Part shown: positions 1 through 5,416 of the stretch, piece by piece | Layout: each line of letters starts with the position of its first letter | How positions within the stretch are numbered: the stretch's first letter is position 1 | Origin: a bacterium | GTDB lineage: Bacteria; JAJRZV01 | Assembly (NCBI GenBank): GCA_024275095.1 | Contig: JAJRZV010000029.1 | Span: forward strand, 1-5,416 | Length of the DNA stretch: 5,416 nt | Direction of reading: 5' to 3' | Translations under genes and position numbers: made by a program | Notes under the pieces: model-generated | Databases searched by the model: none | What the model was told of the DNA's origin: nothing | The model's input: the letters and a program-made list of their open reading frames with translations, nothing else

Positions 1-744
1 GCACAGGCCAACGGTGATATTGAGCACATTGACATGGCCGCGGCACTGATGCGTGCTAATGCAGCGAAAAACCCGTACGCACATCTGCAACATCCGGGTT
101 GTACCAAAGAGGATATTGCGAAGACACCCATCATCTCGTATCCGTTGAGATACTGACATACGTGTCCCACATCGTGTGGCGCCTGTGTCATGATTCTTGT
201 TTCTGAGGATGTGGTGAAGAAATTCGCAGATACTGACAGGGTTGCATGGGTAAAAGGCGTAGCATGCGGTACATCCGATGCGACTATCGGAAATGTGATC
301 GACGGGCAGATTACAGATCCGGCAGACCAGGAAGTGGCGAAAATCGTGGCAAAAAAGGCTTACGAAATGGCAGGAATTTCTGATCCCAAAAAGGAAATTC
401 AGGTTGCAGAAGTGTACGATGGATTTGCACATCAGGTGTTACTGTGGCCTGAAAAATTATTCCTTGTGGAAGAGGGCGGAGGTTCTTGTCGAATGATTGA
501 AAAGGGTGAATTTGAAATTGAAGGTGAAATGCCTGTAAATCCTTCCGGGGGTGTAACCAGCACAAATGCGATCGGTGCATCAGCTATGGTTCGAGTGGCT
601 GAGGTTGCTCTCCAGGTGATGGGCCTCGCAGAAGGAGGACATCAGGTGCCCCGGCGTGTGAAAAATGGCCTTGCACACGGCTGGGGCGGCTTGTTTCAGT
701 TCGTTACAGTTACCATTCTTGGTGATGAACCTGCTACACATTAA
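1..744 (+). CDS. SCP2-type thiolase (acyl-CoA acyltransferase), C-terminal part, interrupted by in-frame TGA at 154-156
   Basis: The frame is open from base 1 except for one TGA at codon 52. It ends at TAA 742-744, so about 247 C-terminal residues of a protein that is usually near 390 are present; the nucleophilic cysteine region lies upstream. Before the TGA the frame reads ISYPLRY and after it HTCPTSCGAC followed by MILVSE, which is the continuous thiolase segment usually seen as PLR-x-x-D-x-C-P-x-x-D-G-A. Further thiolase marks are AEVYDGFA (codons 136-143), NPSGG (180-184) and HGWGG (226-230). The classical GHP histidine and CxG cysteine motifs are replaced by TNAIGAS and HGWGG, a pattern I associate with SCP2/SCP-x-like thiolases paired with DUF35 proteins. 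Reaction: thiolytic cleavage or Claisen condensation of an acyl-CoA; the substrate is unknown. ATG 190 could in principle start a 184-residue fragment, but it has no Shine-Dalgarno and would lack the preceding conserved segment. I consider one gene, either broken, mis-sequenced or recoded. Confidence 0.85.
154..190 (+). other. Hairpin starting at the in-frame TGA of the thiolase
   Basis: As RNA, UGACAUA (154-160) pairs with UGUGUCA (184-190) with one G-U. After a C/C mismatch, 162-164 pairs with 180-182. After a two-base bulge (165-166), CCACA (167-171) pairs with UGUGG (175-179) around the loop UCG. This gives fifteen pairs in 37 bases, with the UGA forming the foot of the stem, as in the E. 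coli fdhF selenocysteine insertion element. Against a true bacterial SECIS: the loop is only three bases and has no G in its first two positions. The pairing is seen directly; any recoding role is inference. Confidence 0.4.
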
Positions 745-751
745 AGGAGGT
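745..751 (+). promoter_or_regulatory. Ribosome binding site of the DUF35 gene
   Basis: AGGAGGT begins immediately after the thiolase TAA and lies five bases before ATG 757. It is a near-perfect Shine-Dalgarno, fixes the start of the downstream gene, and indicates that the two genes are translated from one message. Confidence 0.9.
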
Positions 752-756
752 CACCC

Positions 757-1218
757 ATGGCTGAAGAAAGAGAACAAACAAAAGTTTTCAAATCCAATTG
801 GGATTTACCGCTTTATTCCTGGCGGATAGAGGCAGACGCTCTTAATCTGTTTATAAAAGGATTGAAAGAGAAAAAAATACTCGGCCGCAAATGCTCTAAA
901 TGTGGTACGGTTTATGTTCCAGGCCCCACATATTGTCGCAAGTGCATGGTTGACATAGAAGAAGTGGTAGAGGTGGGCCAGGAGGGTGTGATAGGAGCCT
1001 TCACCGTGAACCTCGCAGACATACGAGGCAACCCCCTGCCAGAGATTTCTATTGTCGTGTGCGTGAAGCTGGATGGGGCAGATTCCTGGTTGATGAGCCG
1101 ACTCGAAGGATGGACGGACTGGAAAGAAGTAAAATCAGGAATGCGGGTTCGCATTGTGTGGAAGGATGAAGTGAAAGGAGCGCTCGCTGATTTAGATCAT
1201 TTCGAACTAATTAAGTAA
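757..1218 (+). CDS. DUF35 / Zn-ribbon OB-fold protein, thiolase partner
   Basis: A 153-residue protein with the DUF35 layout. It has an N-terminal helical segment (about residues 20-42, with LNLFIKGLKEKK), a rubredoxin-like zinc ribbon with C46-x2-C49 and C60-x2-C63, then a beta-rich OB-fold of about residues 68-150. Length is normal for the family. DUF35 proteins bind acyl-CoA in the OB-fold and bridge or support an adjacent thiolase. Known cases are the archaeal acetoacetyl-CoA thiolase/HMG-CoA synthase complex and BbsA with BbsB in anaerobic toluene degradation. The gene starts 12 bases after the thiolase stop, so a stoichiometric complex with that thiolase is the natural inference. No enzyme activity of its own is expected. 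The last 12 bases overlap the 3' end of folC on the other strand. Family assignment is firm; the pathway is not shown by the sequence. Confidence 0.9.
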   Translation: MAEEREQTKVFKSNWDLPLYSWRIEADALNLFIKGLKEKKILGRKCSKCGTVYVPGPTYCRKCMVDIEEVVEVGQEGVIGAFTVNLADIRGNPLPEISIVVCVKLDGADSWLMSRLEGWTDWKEVKSGMRVRIVWKDEVKGALADLDHFELIK

Positions 1219-2478
1219 GGCACGCGATTTAACCATGGAATAAGCTTCACCGGCAAGATAGAAAGATCCGGTTAAGAGTATATTTTTCTTTTCCTTTTGC
1301 CATTTTTTCCAGGGAAGTTTTTTTACACCGGGATATGTATAGATATTATCGAAATTGGCTTTTGAGGCTTCTTCTTTGAGAGTATCAAGTGGGGCATTTC
1401 GAGATGTTACATGTATCGGTACAAGAAAAACCTCACCGGCGATTTTGCGGAGAATTTTCAACTGATGGGAGGCCTTGTCCTGTAAACGCGAATATACGAG
1501 CGTAAAATTCTTGTTGAATCCTTGAAGCCAGGTTACAAGCCGTTCAGTAGCTGCCGGGTTGTGTGCTCCGTCAAAAATCCATAGGGGATTAGTGCTGACA
1601 ATGTGACATCGTGCCGGTATGGAGAGGGTAATCTTCTGCAGGCTTTTTTGAAGCAGTTTATATTGGAGTCCGAAGAGAAACGCTGCAATTACGGCCATGG
1701 CCAGATTTTCAACGAGATGGGAGGGGAGGTATGATGAAAATTTTGAACATGTAAATATACGTTTTTGAAACGTCACGTCTATCTGGTCTTTTCTTTCGTG
1801 TACAGTGAAGTCACGATGAAGCACATAAGGTGTGGCTCCAGTATTGCTGCACTGCTTCTTTACCACGTCCAGGGCTTCTCCTTCACACCCGGTAACAACA
1901 GCATAAGGTCCTTTGATAATGCACACTTTTTCACATGCTATTGCAGCAATGGTGGTGCCCAGGATATGAGTGTGGTCCAGGTGCACATTGGTTAATATAG
2001 CCACTTGTGGCTGGACAATATTCGTGGCGTCCCACCTGCCACCAAGGCCTACTTCTATAACTGCAACGTCGATGTGACTTTCAGCAAAGTAACTGAAGGC
2101 TGCGAGCGTGGCAAATTCAAAATAGGTGGGTCGACAACCCGCCCGGGGCGCAAGTGTGGAAATATTCTTCGAAAAATTTATTATATAGTGTTCAGGGATT
2201 TCGTGTGTTCCTTGAGGGGATAAAATTTTGATACGTTCTGTGAATCTCATGAGATGCGGTGACGTATAGAGTCCAACCCGATATCCGGCATGAGCAAATA
2301 TCCGGGCCAGGTAAGTTGCGGTACTTCCCTTGCCGTTCGTTCCTCCGATTAATATTGAAGGGAACGTTTTTTCTGGATGATTTAAAAGTTCCGCATAGGT
2401 GAGAACCCGTTCCAGGCCTGGCTGAGGCTGCTCTCTCCCCCATAATTTTTCTATGTAAAGGTGGACCTGGTCTTTCAT
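1207..2478 (-). CDS. folC: Bifunctional folylpolyglutamate synthase / dihydrofolate synthase
   Basis: An intact 423-residue Mur-ligase-family protein, the usual length for FolC. Visible motifs are the ATP-binding P-loop GTNGKGST (46-53), TSPHL (72-76), the EVGLGGRWDATN block (142-153), NVHLDHTHILG (164-174) and FDGAHNPAA in the C-terminal domain. It ligates glutamate to folates using ATP, retaining them in the cytoplasm; many bacterial enzymes also make dihydrofolate from dihydropteroate. The helix usually written EKAGIIK is EKVCIIK here; lysine 184, the position carbamylated in studied FolC proteins, is kept. The start is ATG 2478, five bases after the accD stop and with no Shine-Dalgarno, which suggests translational coupling to accD; accD-folC adjacency is also known in E. 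coli. The stop TAG lies inside the end of the convergent DUF35 gene. Whether both activities are present cannot be told. Confidence 0.93.
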   Translation of the reverse strand: MKDQVHLYIEKLWGREQPQPGLERVLTYAELLNHPEKTFPSILIGGTNGKGSTATYLARIFAHAGYRVGLYTSPHLMRFTERIKILSPQGTHEIPEHYIINFSKNISTLAPRAGCRPTYFEFATLAAFSYFAESHIDVAVIEVGLGGRWDATNIVQPQVAILTNVHLDHTHILGTTIAAIACEKVCIIKGPYAVVTGCEGEALDVVKKQCSNTGATPYVLHRDFTVHERKDQIDVTFQKRIFTCSKFSSYLPSHLVENLAMAVIAAFLFGLQYKLLQKSLQKITLSIPARCHIVSTNPLWIFDGAHNPAATERLVTWLQGFNKNFTLVYSRLQDKASHQLKILRKIAGEVFLVPIHVTSRNAPLDTLKEEASKANFDNIYTYPGVKKLPWKKWQKEKKNILLTGSFYLAGEAYSMVKSRALLN

Positions 2479-2483
2479 GAAGA

Positions 2484-3320
2484 TCAGAGAAGATTTAAAA
2501 GACTGACCAATGTGGCTTTAAGATTACCCCTGTGTACAATCATGTCCACGAAACCTTTTTCCATTACCATTTCTGCTCGCTGGAAACCTTCAGGCAGTTC
2601 CTGTCGAATAGTTTCTCTTATCACTCTTGGACCGGCGAAACCGACAAGTGCTCGAGGTTCTGCAATAATAATATCTCCCAGTGAGGCAAAACTTGCTGCG
2701 ACCCCTCCACTTGTGGGATCACTCAGGATGGAAATAAAAGGTCGCGAAGAAGAAGATTTGAATTCTCTTACCGCAGCGATAGTCTTGGTCATCTGCATCA
2801 ATGACACAATCCCTTCTTGCATTCTGGCACCACCAGAAGACGTGATTGTAATAACTGGTATATTATCTTTACCACATGTCTGAAAAAGAAGATGCAAACG
2901 TTCACCTACAACTGATCCCATACTGCCGCCCATGAACCGGAAGTCAAACACACCCAATCCCACCCTGTGGGAAACAAGCTTTCCTATCACACACGTGACT
3001 GCTTCGGATATACCTGTTTTCTCGTGTGTTTCTTTTAACCTGTCCTCGTATTTTTTCGTATCCTTAAACCCTAAGAAGTCCGTAGGTAGCACATTGTCGC
3101 CGACCGTTTCTTCTCTTTCATCCACCAGGAGTTTTAGCCATTCATCCGCAGAAAGACGAAAGTGATAGTTACAGCGTGGACACGTTTTGAAATTACGTTC
3201 TACTTCGGCACGATAGATAATTTATCCGCAGAAAGGACATTTGACCCACAGGCCTTCGGGCGTTTTTTTTCGTGGTATTGATGAAGGTGACTTTTTCCTT
3301 GATCCGAAAAGAAATGCCAT
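2484..3320 (-). pseudogene. accD: Acetyl-CoA carboxylase carboxyltransferase subunit beta, with premature TAA in the zinc ribbon
   Basis: Read from ATG 3320 (MAFLFGSRKK) the frame gives a full AccD of 278 codons, normal for the family, apart from TAA at codon 33 (3224-3222). The stop sits in the N-terminal zinc ribbon (C28-x2-C31, C47-x2-C50), between CPFCG and IIYRAEVE. Homologues typically have lysine there, so AAA to TAA explains it. The rest is intact: FMGGSMGSVVGER, SSGGARMQEG, SDPTSGGVAASFA and VGFAGPRVI form the acetyl-CoA-binding crotonase-fold site. AccD with AccA transfers carboxyl from biotin-BCCP to acetyl-CoA, giving malonyl-CoA for fatty acid synthesis. A shorter open frame begins at GTG 3125, but that codon is the valine of LLVDEREET and such a product lacks the zinc ribbon. 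No Shine-Dalgarno precedes ATG 3320, which is 9 bases from the upstream gene. Because accD is normally essential, a sequence error is as likely as real decay. Confidence 0.85.
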
Positions 3321-3329
3321 GATGACGTA

Positions 3330-4091
3330 TTAAATGGAAATGGTAGAACCCTGTTCCAGTAACTGTATTCTATTGTCGTGGAGTTGTCTGAGCTCTTTTT
3401 TTATTTGATTTATAAATCGTGGCTTGAGGTGATACACGTAGACAGGTACATCTTTTTTCAATTTATGAAGATCTTTCTGGAGAGTGGCAGGAGTGTAGTG
3501 GAAGCTTGCATCTGCCACGCTCTGAAGCGAGTTGGGAAATGACGTTTAAACAAAGAGGGCTCTCAGATTTCGCGATTGATTGGCTATTTCCCACAGCATT
3601 TCAGTTGGGCCGGTATCACTGCTTATAATAAAGGATGAACCATCACCTGAAACCTTTACCCCTACCGTATCAATGGCATGAGATACAGGAAACACATTGA
3701 ATTTTAATCCGTTGCATTGGAATCCATTAACACTTTTTACCACCCGATATTTCATTACAGGCTTGTTAGCTGTAGGTAGTTTTGAAAAGTCAGGCCACAC
3801 GATGTTGTTAAATACGTGTTTTTTCAGGGTGTCAATTACGCTTTCCAACCCCACAATAGTTACAGGTGATGTCCTCAGACCGAAAATGTTATCAATGAGA
3901 AATGGAACGTCTTTAATATGGTCGAAATGACAGTGGGTGATAAGAATTGCATCGATACGCGCCTGTTCGTCAATACTGAGACTGGAGGTGAGTGCGCCTG
4001 CATCTATGGAGACCCTATCGTTAATCAGAAAACAGGTTGTTTTATATTTAAGGGTTTCGCTTCCGTAACACCCGAGAATACGAATCTTCAC
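3330..4091 (-). pseudogene. Metallo-beta-lactamase-fold hydrolase, class II cyclic-nucleotide phosphodiesterase-like, with premature TAA
   Basis: A 253-codon frame from GTG 4091 (MKIRILGCYGSE), broken only by TAA at codon 182 (3548-3546). Metal-site residues are H53-x-H55-x-D57-H58 (HCHFDH), H138, D159 (SSDTGPT) and, after the stop, H198 (FHYTP) and H221 (YHLKP). The frame reads ALFV, stop, TSFPNSLQ; homologues as I recall them have E-T/V-SFPN, so GAA to TAA explains it. A product ending at 181 would lose the last metal ligand and should be inactive. The fold and the C-terminal HLKP motif resemble class II cAMP phosphodiesterases (yeast PDE1, Vibrio CpdP), which hydrolyse cyclic nucleotides. 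The adjacent upstream cyclic-nucleotide receptor supports this, but other phosphodiester substrates are possible. TTG 4103, overlapping the regulator's TGA, is an alternative start; GTG is preferred because GAGG lies six bases before it. Confidence 0.75.
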
Positions 4092-4097
4092 TGAGGG

Positions 4098-4101
4098 CCT
4101 C
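4098..4101 (-). promoter_or_regulatory. Ribosome binding site selecting GTG 4091 of the hydrolase gene
   Basis: GAGG on the minus strand overlaps the TGA stop of the regulator gene and sits six bases before GTG 4091. It argues for GTG 4091 over TTG 4103 and for coupling of the two genes. Confidence 0.5.
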
Positions 4102-4750
4102 AAATGTCTCCAAATTGTTCTTTCATGGTGAGATATTCAAGGAACTTATCCAGTTTTTCTATAGACTCCACCACAAATCCACCGTCAGCATCGCTGATAA
4201 TTCGCGCTTTCCGCAGTTTGTCGATCACATCACGAGTCTCGTCTTCACTGAGGCCGCAGAGCGTGGCCACTTCTGATACTCCCGCATTAATCTTCAGTCC
4301 TCCTGCAATTTGTTCGCCTTTTTCATTGGCCAATCGTTTGAGAATGTGAACCACCTTTCTATTTTTGTCTTTGATTAAGAGACTTTCTATTTGTGCGTTT
4401 GTTTCTCTGAGACGTTGAGAAAGTTTTTTTATAATTCGATAGGCAATTTCTGGATTGCTTTTAATCATGGCTTCAAATGTCCCCTCATCTACCTCGAGCA
4501 TTTTTGCATCTTCTATCACTTCTGCTGAGGCAGAGCGGGGTTTATCATCGAGAATTGCCATTTCTCCAAAAAATTCTCCCGGCCCCAGTACAGCCAGTGT
4601 TTTATCTACGTCACCGATTTGTTTGAAGATTCTGACTTTTCCCGACTGAATAATGTACATCGTTTTTCCTGTATCCCCCTCGCGAAAAATCACGGTGCCT
4701 TTTGACATCTCGCGTCCAAATCGTTGAAAAAGTTTGTCTTGAACAGACAT
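4100..4750 (-). CDS. CRP/FNR-family cyclic-nucleotide-binding transcriptional regulator
   Basis: An intact 216-residue protein. Residues about 10-120 form a cyclic-nucleotide-binding beta-roll: GTVIFREGDTGKTMYII, then the phosphate-binding cassette GEFFGEMAILDDKPRSASA (58-76). The cassette has E63 and the R72-S73-A74 trio typical of proteins that really bind cNMP. A connecting helix (about 100-130) precedes a C-terminal winged-helix-like region (about 130-205) with VSEVATLCGLSEDETRDVIDKL as the probable helix-turn-helix. Its fit to the classical CRP recognition helix is loose, so DNA binding is likely rather than certain. No N-terminal cysteine cluster of FNR type is present. The start at ATG 4750 is chosen over an ATG at 4801 because GAGAGGTG precedes it at six bases; the extra segment from 4801 would also cover the promoter. 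It heads the run with the phosphodiesterase-like gene, accD and folC, and diverges from an envelope protein gene, a possible target. Ligand (cAMP, cGMP or other) unknown. Confidence 0.88.
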   Translation of the reverse strand: MSVQDKLFQRFGREMSKGTVIFREGDTGKTMYIIQSGKVRIFKQIGDVDKTLAVLGPGEFFGEMAILDDKPRSASAEVIEDAKMLEVDEGTFEAMIKSNPEIAYRIIKKLSQRLRETNAQIESLLIKDKNRKVVHILKRLANEKGEQIAGGLKINAGVSEVATLCGLSEDETRDVIDKLRKARIISDADGGFVVESIEKLDKFLEYLTMKEQFGDI

Positions 4751-4756
4751 TTTTTT

Positions 4757-4764
4757 CACCTCTC
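4757..4764 (-). promoter_or_regulatory. Ribosome binding site of the CRP-family regulator
   Basis: GAGAGGTG on the minus strand is followed by six A bases and ATG 4750. This fixes the regulator start at 4750 rather than at the in-frame ATG at 4801. Confidence 0.75.
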
Positions 4765-4784
4765 TTGATGAAATAAATCCAATT

Positions 4785-4814
4785 TTGACATACTTTATCA
4801 TCTATGACTATCAA
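4785..4814 (+). promoter_or_regulatory. Candidate sigma-70 promoter for the outer-membrane protein gene
   Basis: TTGACA (4785-4790, perfect -35) is followed after 18 bases by TATCAA (4809-4814, 4/6 of a -10). The start would lie near 4821, giving a leader of about 68 bases. It overlaps the opposite-strand candidate almost completely, so the two could not both be occupied at once. The weak -10 keeps confidence low. Confidence 0.35.
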
Positions 4815-4888: not shown

Positions 4889-5416
4889 ATGTGTAAGCAA
4901 GGGATAAAAATCATCTCAGTAGCATGTTTACTCGTTTTTGCACTTATAACTTCCGTAAATGCAGAAATACCCCGTGTGAGCCTCAGCGGCTCCAGCGGAT
5001 TAATTTTTAACAGAACCGCTGCTACTCTCCCAGGTGGAGAGTTCAGCACAATGTTTTTTTTCGGCATGCGCAAGTTCCTTACTCCCAAAGAGCATTTTTA
5101 TTCCGAACCGCGGAACTTTAATCTTGATGCAGAGCTCAGTGCAGCTTTTGGAGTCGCTGCGGGAGTGGAAACAGGCCTTGCTGTACCGGTGGCTTTTTAC
5201 GGCGGCGTGGAAGGAAAAACTGGTGTGGGGGCCCCGGAAGTGTTTTTTAAATATTCGCCTCTGCATGTAAACGGCCGGCCGATAGGTCTTGCATTTACCC
5301 TGTACGGGCGTTTCCCGCCGGGTACCAACACGACAGAAATTGCAAGCGGGAAGTTTAACGGTGGAGGTGATGTGAGCTTTACATGGACTCCCGTGGAAAG
5401 TCGAACGCTATTCTTA
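4889..5416 (+). CDS. Secreted, probable outer-membrane beta-barrel protein, N-terminal part
   Basis: The frame is open from ATG 4889 to the window end, 176 codons without a stop, so the gene is cut by the edge. Residues 1-25 are a clear Sec signal peptide: basic start with K3 and K7, hydrophobic core IISVACLLVFALITSV, and likely signal peptidase I cleavage at VNA|E. The mature part is rich in glycine, aromatic residues and alternating hydrophobic stretches, for example SSGLIFNRTAATLPGGEF, FGVAAGVETGLAVPVAFYGG, IGLAFTLYGRFPPGT and GGGDVSFTWTP. This looks like antiparallel strands and turns of an outer-membrane barrel of the OmpA-like or porin/meta-pathway transporter type. I cannot assign a named family without the C-terminus. 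A stop at 4880-4882 makes ATG 4889 the first possible start; no good Shine-Dalgarno precedes it. It is divergent from the cyclic-nucleotide regulator, which may control it. Confidence 0.75.
   Translation, partial: MCKQGIKIISVACLLVFALITSVNAEIPRVSLSGSSGLIFNRTAATLPGGEFSTMFFFGMRKFLTPKEHFYSEPRNFNLDAELSAAFGVAAGVETGLAVPVAFYGGVEGKTGVGAPEVFFKYSPLHVNGRPIGLAFTLYGRFPPGTNTTEIASGKFNGGGDVSFTWTPVESRTLFL

Follow-up and report, generated by a model that had tools for sequence, protein, structure and literature searches.

In-frame stop codons in conserved genes of a metagenome-assembled bacterial genome most likely reflect errors in the assembled sequence

Three genes on one contig of a bacterial metagenome-assembled genome (MAG) each carry a single in-frame stop codon, and we infer with good confidence that these stops are base-substitution errors in the short-read consensus. 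Faults in the assembly, rather than a novel mode of decoding, are the most likely source of the lesions. The window, i.e. the whole stretch of DNA that was analysed, comprises contig C125 in full (5416 bases); the MAG has a size of 2.45 Mb, 136 contigs, and a completeness of 97%. A phylum-level search of the genome collection returned only this genome. The window contains the following features:

1..744, plus strand: thiolase (SCP2/lipid-transfer type), C-terminal 247 codons, left end lost at the contig edge, one in-frame TGA, terminator TAA (Pfam Thiolase_C_1, 4.7e-27; 73% identical relative in genome G019)
154..156, plus strand: TGA in the thiolase frame, aligned at the DNA level with GGA (Gly) of the G019 thiolase, the closest relative
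757..1218, plus strand: DUF35/ChsH2-like zinc-ribbon and OB-fold protein, intact, ends with TAA (Pfam zf-ChsH2, 2.2e-7; OB_ChsH2_C, 8.3e-6)
1207..2478, minus strand: folC, folylpolyglutamate synthase, open frame, ends with TAG (Pfam Mur ligase domains; 55 homologs aligned)
2484..3320, minus strand: accD, acetyl-CoA carboxylase carboxyltransferase beta subunit, one in-frame TAA, ends with TGA (Pfam Carboxyl_trans, 2.6e-13; Zn_ribbon_ACC, 7.3e-10); the inferred start is the ATG of MAFLF
3222..3224, minus strand: TAA in the N-terminal zinc-ribbon region of accD; Glu in 70, Gln in 2, and Lys in 1 of 109 relatives
3330..4103, minus strand: metallo-beta-lactamase-fold hydrolase, class II cyclic-nucleotide phosphodiesterase-like, one in-frame TAA, ends with TAA (Pfam PDEase_II, 1.2e-17; Lactamase_B_2, 2.4e-13)
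3546..3548, minus strand: TAA in the hydrolase at an invariant Glu (14 of 14 relatives)
4100..4801, minus strand: cyclic-nucleotide-binding regulator, intact, ends with TGA (Pfam cNMP_binding, 9.7e-26)
4889..5416, plus strand: start of a seventh open reading frame (ORF), which continues without a stop into contig C66 for a total of 557 codons (exact 141-base overlap, joined frame open)
5276..5416, strand not assigned: exact 141-base overlap with the start of C66, a short-read assembly-graph end (end comparison)

The three stops lie where an initial annotation made from the sequence had placed them (TGA 154-156, TAA 3224-3222, and TAA 3548-3546), with open frames on either side. Its count of six genes, three of them interrupted, holds for the interrupted ones, while a seventh ORF begins at the right end and the thiolase is cut by the left end. 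Both flanks of each stop encode the same protein according to Pfam and tblastn, the alignments of AccD, the hydrolase, and the thiolase pass straight through the stops, and no accompanying frameshift was seen in the window, all as had been claimed. A single substitution per stop suffices, as had also been proposed: each of the three fits a single coding-strand change from G to T, though the genes occupy both strands of the contig. For the hydrolase, the suggested change from GAA to TAA agrees with the Glu of all relatives, whereas the suggested AAA to TAA in accD would require the Lys found in one relative only, and GAA is far likelier. At the thiolase site, Gly occurs in 4 of 16 thiolases, which are the four best-matching ones. 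Here TAC TGA CAT of the window corresponds to TAC GGA CAT in the G019 relative, which also has the unusual residues nearby, leaving one odd base. We had considered residues near this TGA as further errors and rejected them, since the closest relative is nearly identical there and the residues are thus natural. Apart from its stop, AccD has no deviation at 50 invariant columns of the homolog alignment, and none of the AccD relatives listed contains a stop. A search for a second intact AccD-type copy, as advised by the initial annotation, found none in the genome; the accD of the window is the only one.

Stops of the same kind recur across the genome. About 1.2 Mb (93 contigs including the window) was read, of which ~474 kb was covered by homology to proteins of other genomes, the genome's own paralogs, and E. 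coli, and isolated stops were chosen by eye from the alignment list. Scoring of the frames around stops by codon usage was dropped for homology, as it was too weak even for the three stops of the window. The 28 ABC_tran domains of the genome and all its other thiolases are free of stops, which had given the first impression that the lesions are confined to this contig; the wider survey overturned it. The genome-wide count of stops in conserved genes that the initial annotation had called for yielded ~12 further isolated in-frame stops in ~470 kb of covered sequence outside the window, all identified by the homology survey:

contig C11: rplC
contig C7: rplU (Gln in 29 of 29 relatives)
contig C21: prfB and dnaE
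contig C29: trmD (Val/Ala/Ser at the site) and an ATPase
contig C76: accC
contig C72: gspE/pilB
contig C59: malic enzyme
contig C89: M16 peptidase (Glu in both homologs)
contig C128: ABC permease
contig C96: radical-SAM protein

The contigs bearing these stops are 5 to 74 kb long. The genes hit have one lesion each and include core translation, replication, and lipid genes, and accD, rplC, rplU, and trmD have one full-length match each in the genome. The replaced residue is clear at some sites, such as those in rplU and the M16 peptidase, and ambiguous in rplC, accC, prfB, dnaE, and the ATPase. At all but one of the sites compared, a single base change suffices to turn a codon for an observed residue into the stop. 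TAA replaces Gln in rplU, Glu in the hydrolase and mostly in accD, and Val/Ala/Ser in trmD, i.e. no single amino acid. Frameshifts were detected in argS, oadA/pyruvate carboxylase B, and a P-type ATPase with a screen that tests query continuity, an earlier version of which returned tandem paralogs; an apparent frameshift at L198 was rejected because it is a fusion in the relative. In rplU (L171:3634-3978, minus strand), a Val (GTA) furthermore replaces the Gly that all 28 relatives have, and this may be another error of the G-to-T type.

The window ends in 141 bases with which contig C66 begins, without a mismatch, and seven further pairs of sampled contigs have exactly 141 end bases in common, which marks the genome as a de Bruijn assembly of short reads (k=141). 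When 350 kb of genome G019 (166 kb covered) was surveyed for stops in the same way, no convincing one appeared, and 80 comparison loci, mostly from MAGs (741 kb covered), contained two clear lone stops, the other listed lines being judged by eye as wrong-frame alignments or gene boundaries:

L099:8697: accD, in a k141-named MAG
L058:9660: folC, in another MAG

Both are likely errors of the same kind. The genome under study, with 12 stops per 470 kb, exceeds the rate of the comparison loci (2 per 741 kb) ~10 times (P=4e-4) and differs from the absence of stops in G019 with P=0.045.

Several lines of evidence favour consensus error. Like lesions affect rplC, rplU, dnaE, prfB, trmD, and accC on different contigs and are accompanied by the frameshifts in argS and oadA; the stops strike blindly, including at invariant residues such as the Gln of rplU and the Glu of the hydrolase, and replace different amino acids; the tRNAs read include no suppressor, and RF1 and RF2 each have a gene; and the assembly is of the short-read type, with rare like cases in other assemblies and none in G019. 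The stops of the window would accordingly belong to a genome-wide load of wrong bases, which is estimated at ~6.5e-4 per base from the rate outside the window under the assumption of uniform substitutions, or ~1 wrong base per 1.5 kb as inferred from nonsense changes. Their cause would be an error of sequencing, template damage, or assembly rather than real mutation, and all three genes are probably unbroken in the organism itself. Short-read MAGs with consensus errors likewise are fragmented assemblies with k-mer ends, whose conserved and essential genes bear isolated substitutions and, now and then, a frameshift, but here the stops are about tenfold commoner than in the comparison loci, rich in TAA, and locally dense in one contig. 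The window has 3 stops in 4.76 kb of homology-covered sequence, where the rate elsewhere (~12 in 470 kb) predicts 0.12 (P ~3e-4 before correction for the window having been chosen for its stops), for which low local coverage or chance would be the only accounts we can offer.

Several observations do not sit easily with random error. A rate near 6.5e-4 is high for the fair coverage that contigs of up to 74 kb imply, and the stop-free ABC domains and other thiolases likewise count against the error reading. TAA makes up 12 of the 15 stops, which has P=0.0017 under uniform substitutions and P ~0.04 if all changes were G:C to T:A (binomial estimate). Consensus error should produce missense and nonsense changes at ~16 to 1, and random error dense enough for three stops should add ~5 missense changes at the ~150 near-invariant columns of the window, where 3 were seen, i.e. 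no excess, at low power. The best-identified lost bases mostly look like G-to-T on the coding strand, with rplU (C-to-T) as the exception, and a test of the substitution spectrum at conserved columns showed a weak lean to G:C-to-T:A that is confounded by unequal reference sets. Such a lean would suit oxidative (8-oxoguanine-type) damage or a reading error, which we offer only as a suggestion and not as a claim of cause.

The initial annotation had left error or damage, early decay, and readthrough side by side; the genome-wide stops and the essential genes they hit favour the first and make decay implausible. Real nonsense mutations, either from early gene decay or from DNA of a minority strain or of dead cells that became fixed in the assembly, are an unlikely source of the stops. 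Single substitutions in otherwise intact frames have the look of recent inactivation, and there are some frameshifts elsewhere in the genome, but no cell survives with single-copy rplC, rplU, trmD, and accD as well as dnaE, prfB, and argS all broken, and each gene has only one lesion while the remainder of the protein is conserved. The pseudogenes of decaying bacterial genomes resemble the present cases in having premature stops in recognisable genes and differ in that here the targets are core single-copy genes, each with a single lesion and no further erosion. Early decay is implausible where single-copy genes of translation and replication are affected throughout the genome.

Less probable still is efficient natural readthrough in essential genes, at UAA codons (and a few UAG/UGA) dispersed over the genome, with no codon reassigned. 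The excess of TAA, the stops in essential genes with otherwise intact frames, and the lack of a missense excess in the window are in line with it, and ~16 of the 43 tRNA genes lie outside the sequence read. Against this, no suppressor or cognate anticodon for the stops was found among the tRNAs in the 1.2 Mb read, RF1 is intact, and RF2 is present, with an internal TAA in its own gene. All three stop codons also end genes normally (TGA 277, TAA 222, and TAG 56 of 555 long ORFs), and some of the stops are at invariant residues, which a suppressor would not restore. Should the reads bear the stops out, readthrough on such a scale in essential bacterial genes would be remarkable.

A reassigned code, in which UAA/UAG would encode Glu and UGA Gly, is effectively excluded. 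In Absconditabacteria/Gracilibacteria UGA encodes Gly (NCBI table 25), and here one TGA stands at a position that is Gly in the closest relatives, but TGA is the commonest terminator of this genome (277 of 555 long ORFs) and RF2 is present. Blastocrithidia reads UAA/UAG as Glu with dedicated tRNAs and also uses UAA as terminator (PMC11040004). Several TAA/TAG sites of the present genome are likewise Glu in relatives and TAA also ends genes, whereas the ~15 stops in ~157,000 homology-covered codons are very rare where a reassigned codon would be common, the replaced residues are mixed (TAA also at the invariant Gln of rplU and the Val/Ala/Ser site of trmD), no cognate tRNA is among those read, and both release factors are present. 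Each of GAA>TAA, GAG>TAG, and GGA>TGA is no more than a nonsense change by one G-to-T step. The argument of the initial annotation against reassignment is borne out, given that TAA, TGA, and TAG are all ordinary terminators, that the replaced residues differ, and that the genome has an intact RF1 as well as RF2. The authors of a screen of 250,000 genomes caution that pseudogenes or contamination can give rise to in-frame stops that mimic reassignment (PMC8629427).

This assembly, the only one of its phylum in the collection, has ~1 nonsense change for every 40 kb of conserved coding DNA. With consensus error as the preferred reading, apparent pseudogenes, missing enzymes, or recoded stops in it are thus untrustworthy without the reads.

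Some further observations concern individual genes. The frame of prfB, encoding RF2 (L244:8465-9532, contig C21), begins right after a stop and resembles the classical, here putative, programmed frameshift site of RF2; the internal TAA, ~82 codons in, is separate from this stop at the gene start. ARAGORN called a tRNA-Pro at L197:12653-12728 (contig C69) whose AGG anticodon is unusual in bacteria; the call may be spurious, or one more base may be wrong. The closest relative of the thiolase is in G019, while other genes are nearest to those of G026 or other genomes. The metallo-hydrolase adjoins accD in the window (2484-4103), in G019 (C2:21236-22822), and also in G027 and G033, i.e. in a common gene neighbourhood. 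The convergent folC (minus strand) and DUF35 gene (plus strand) overlap by 12 bases at positions 1207-1218 of the window.
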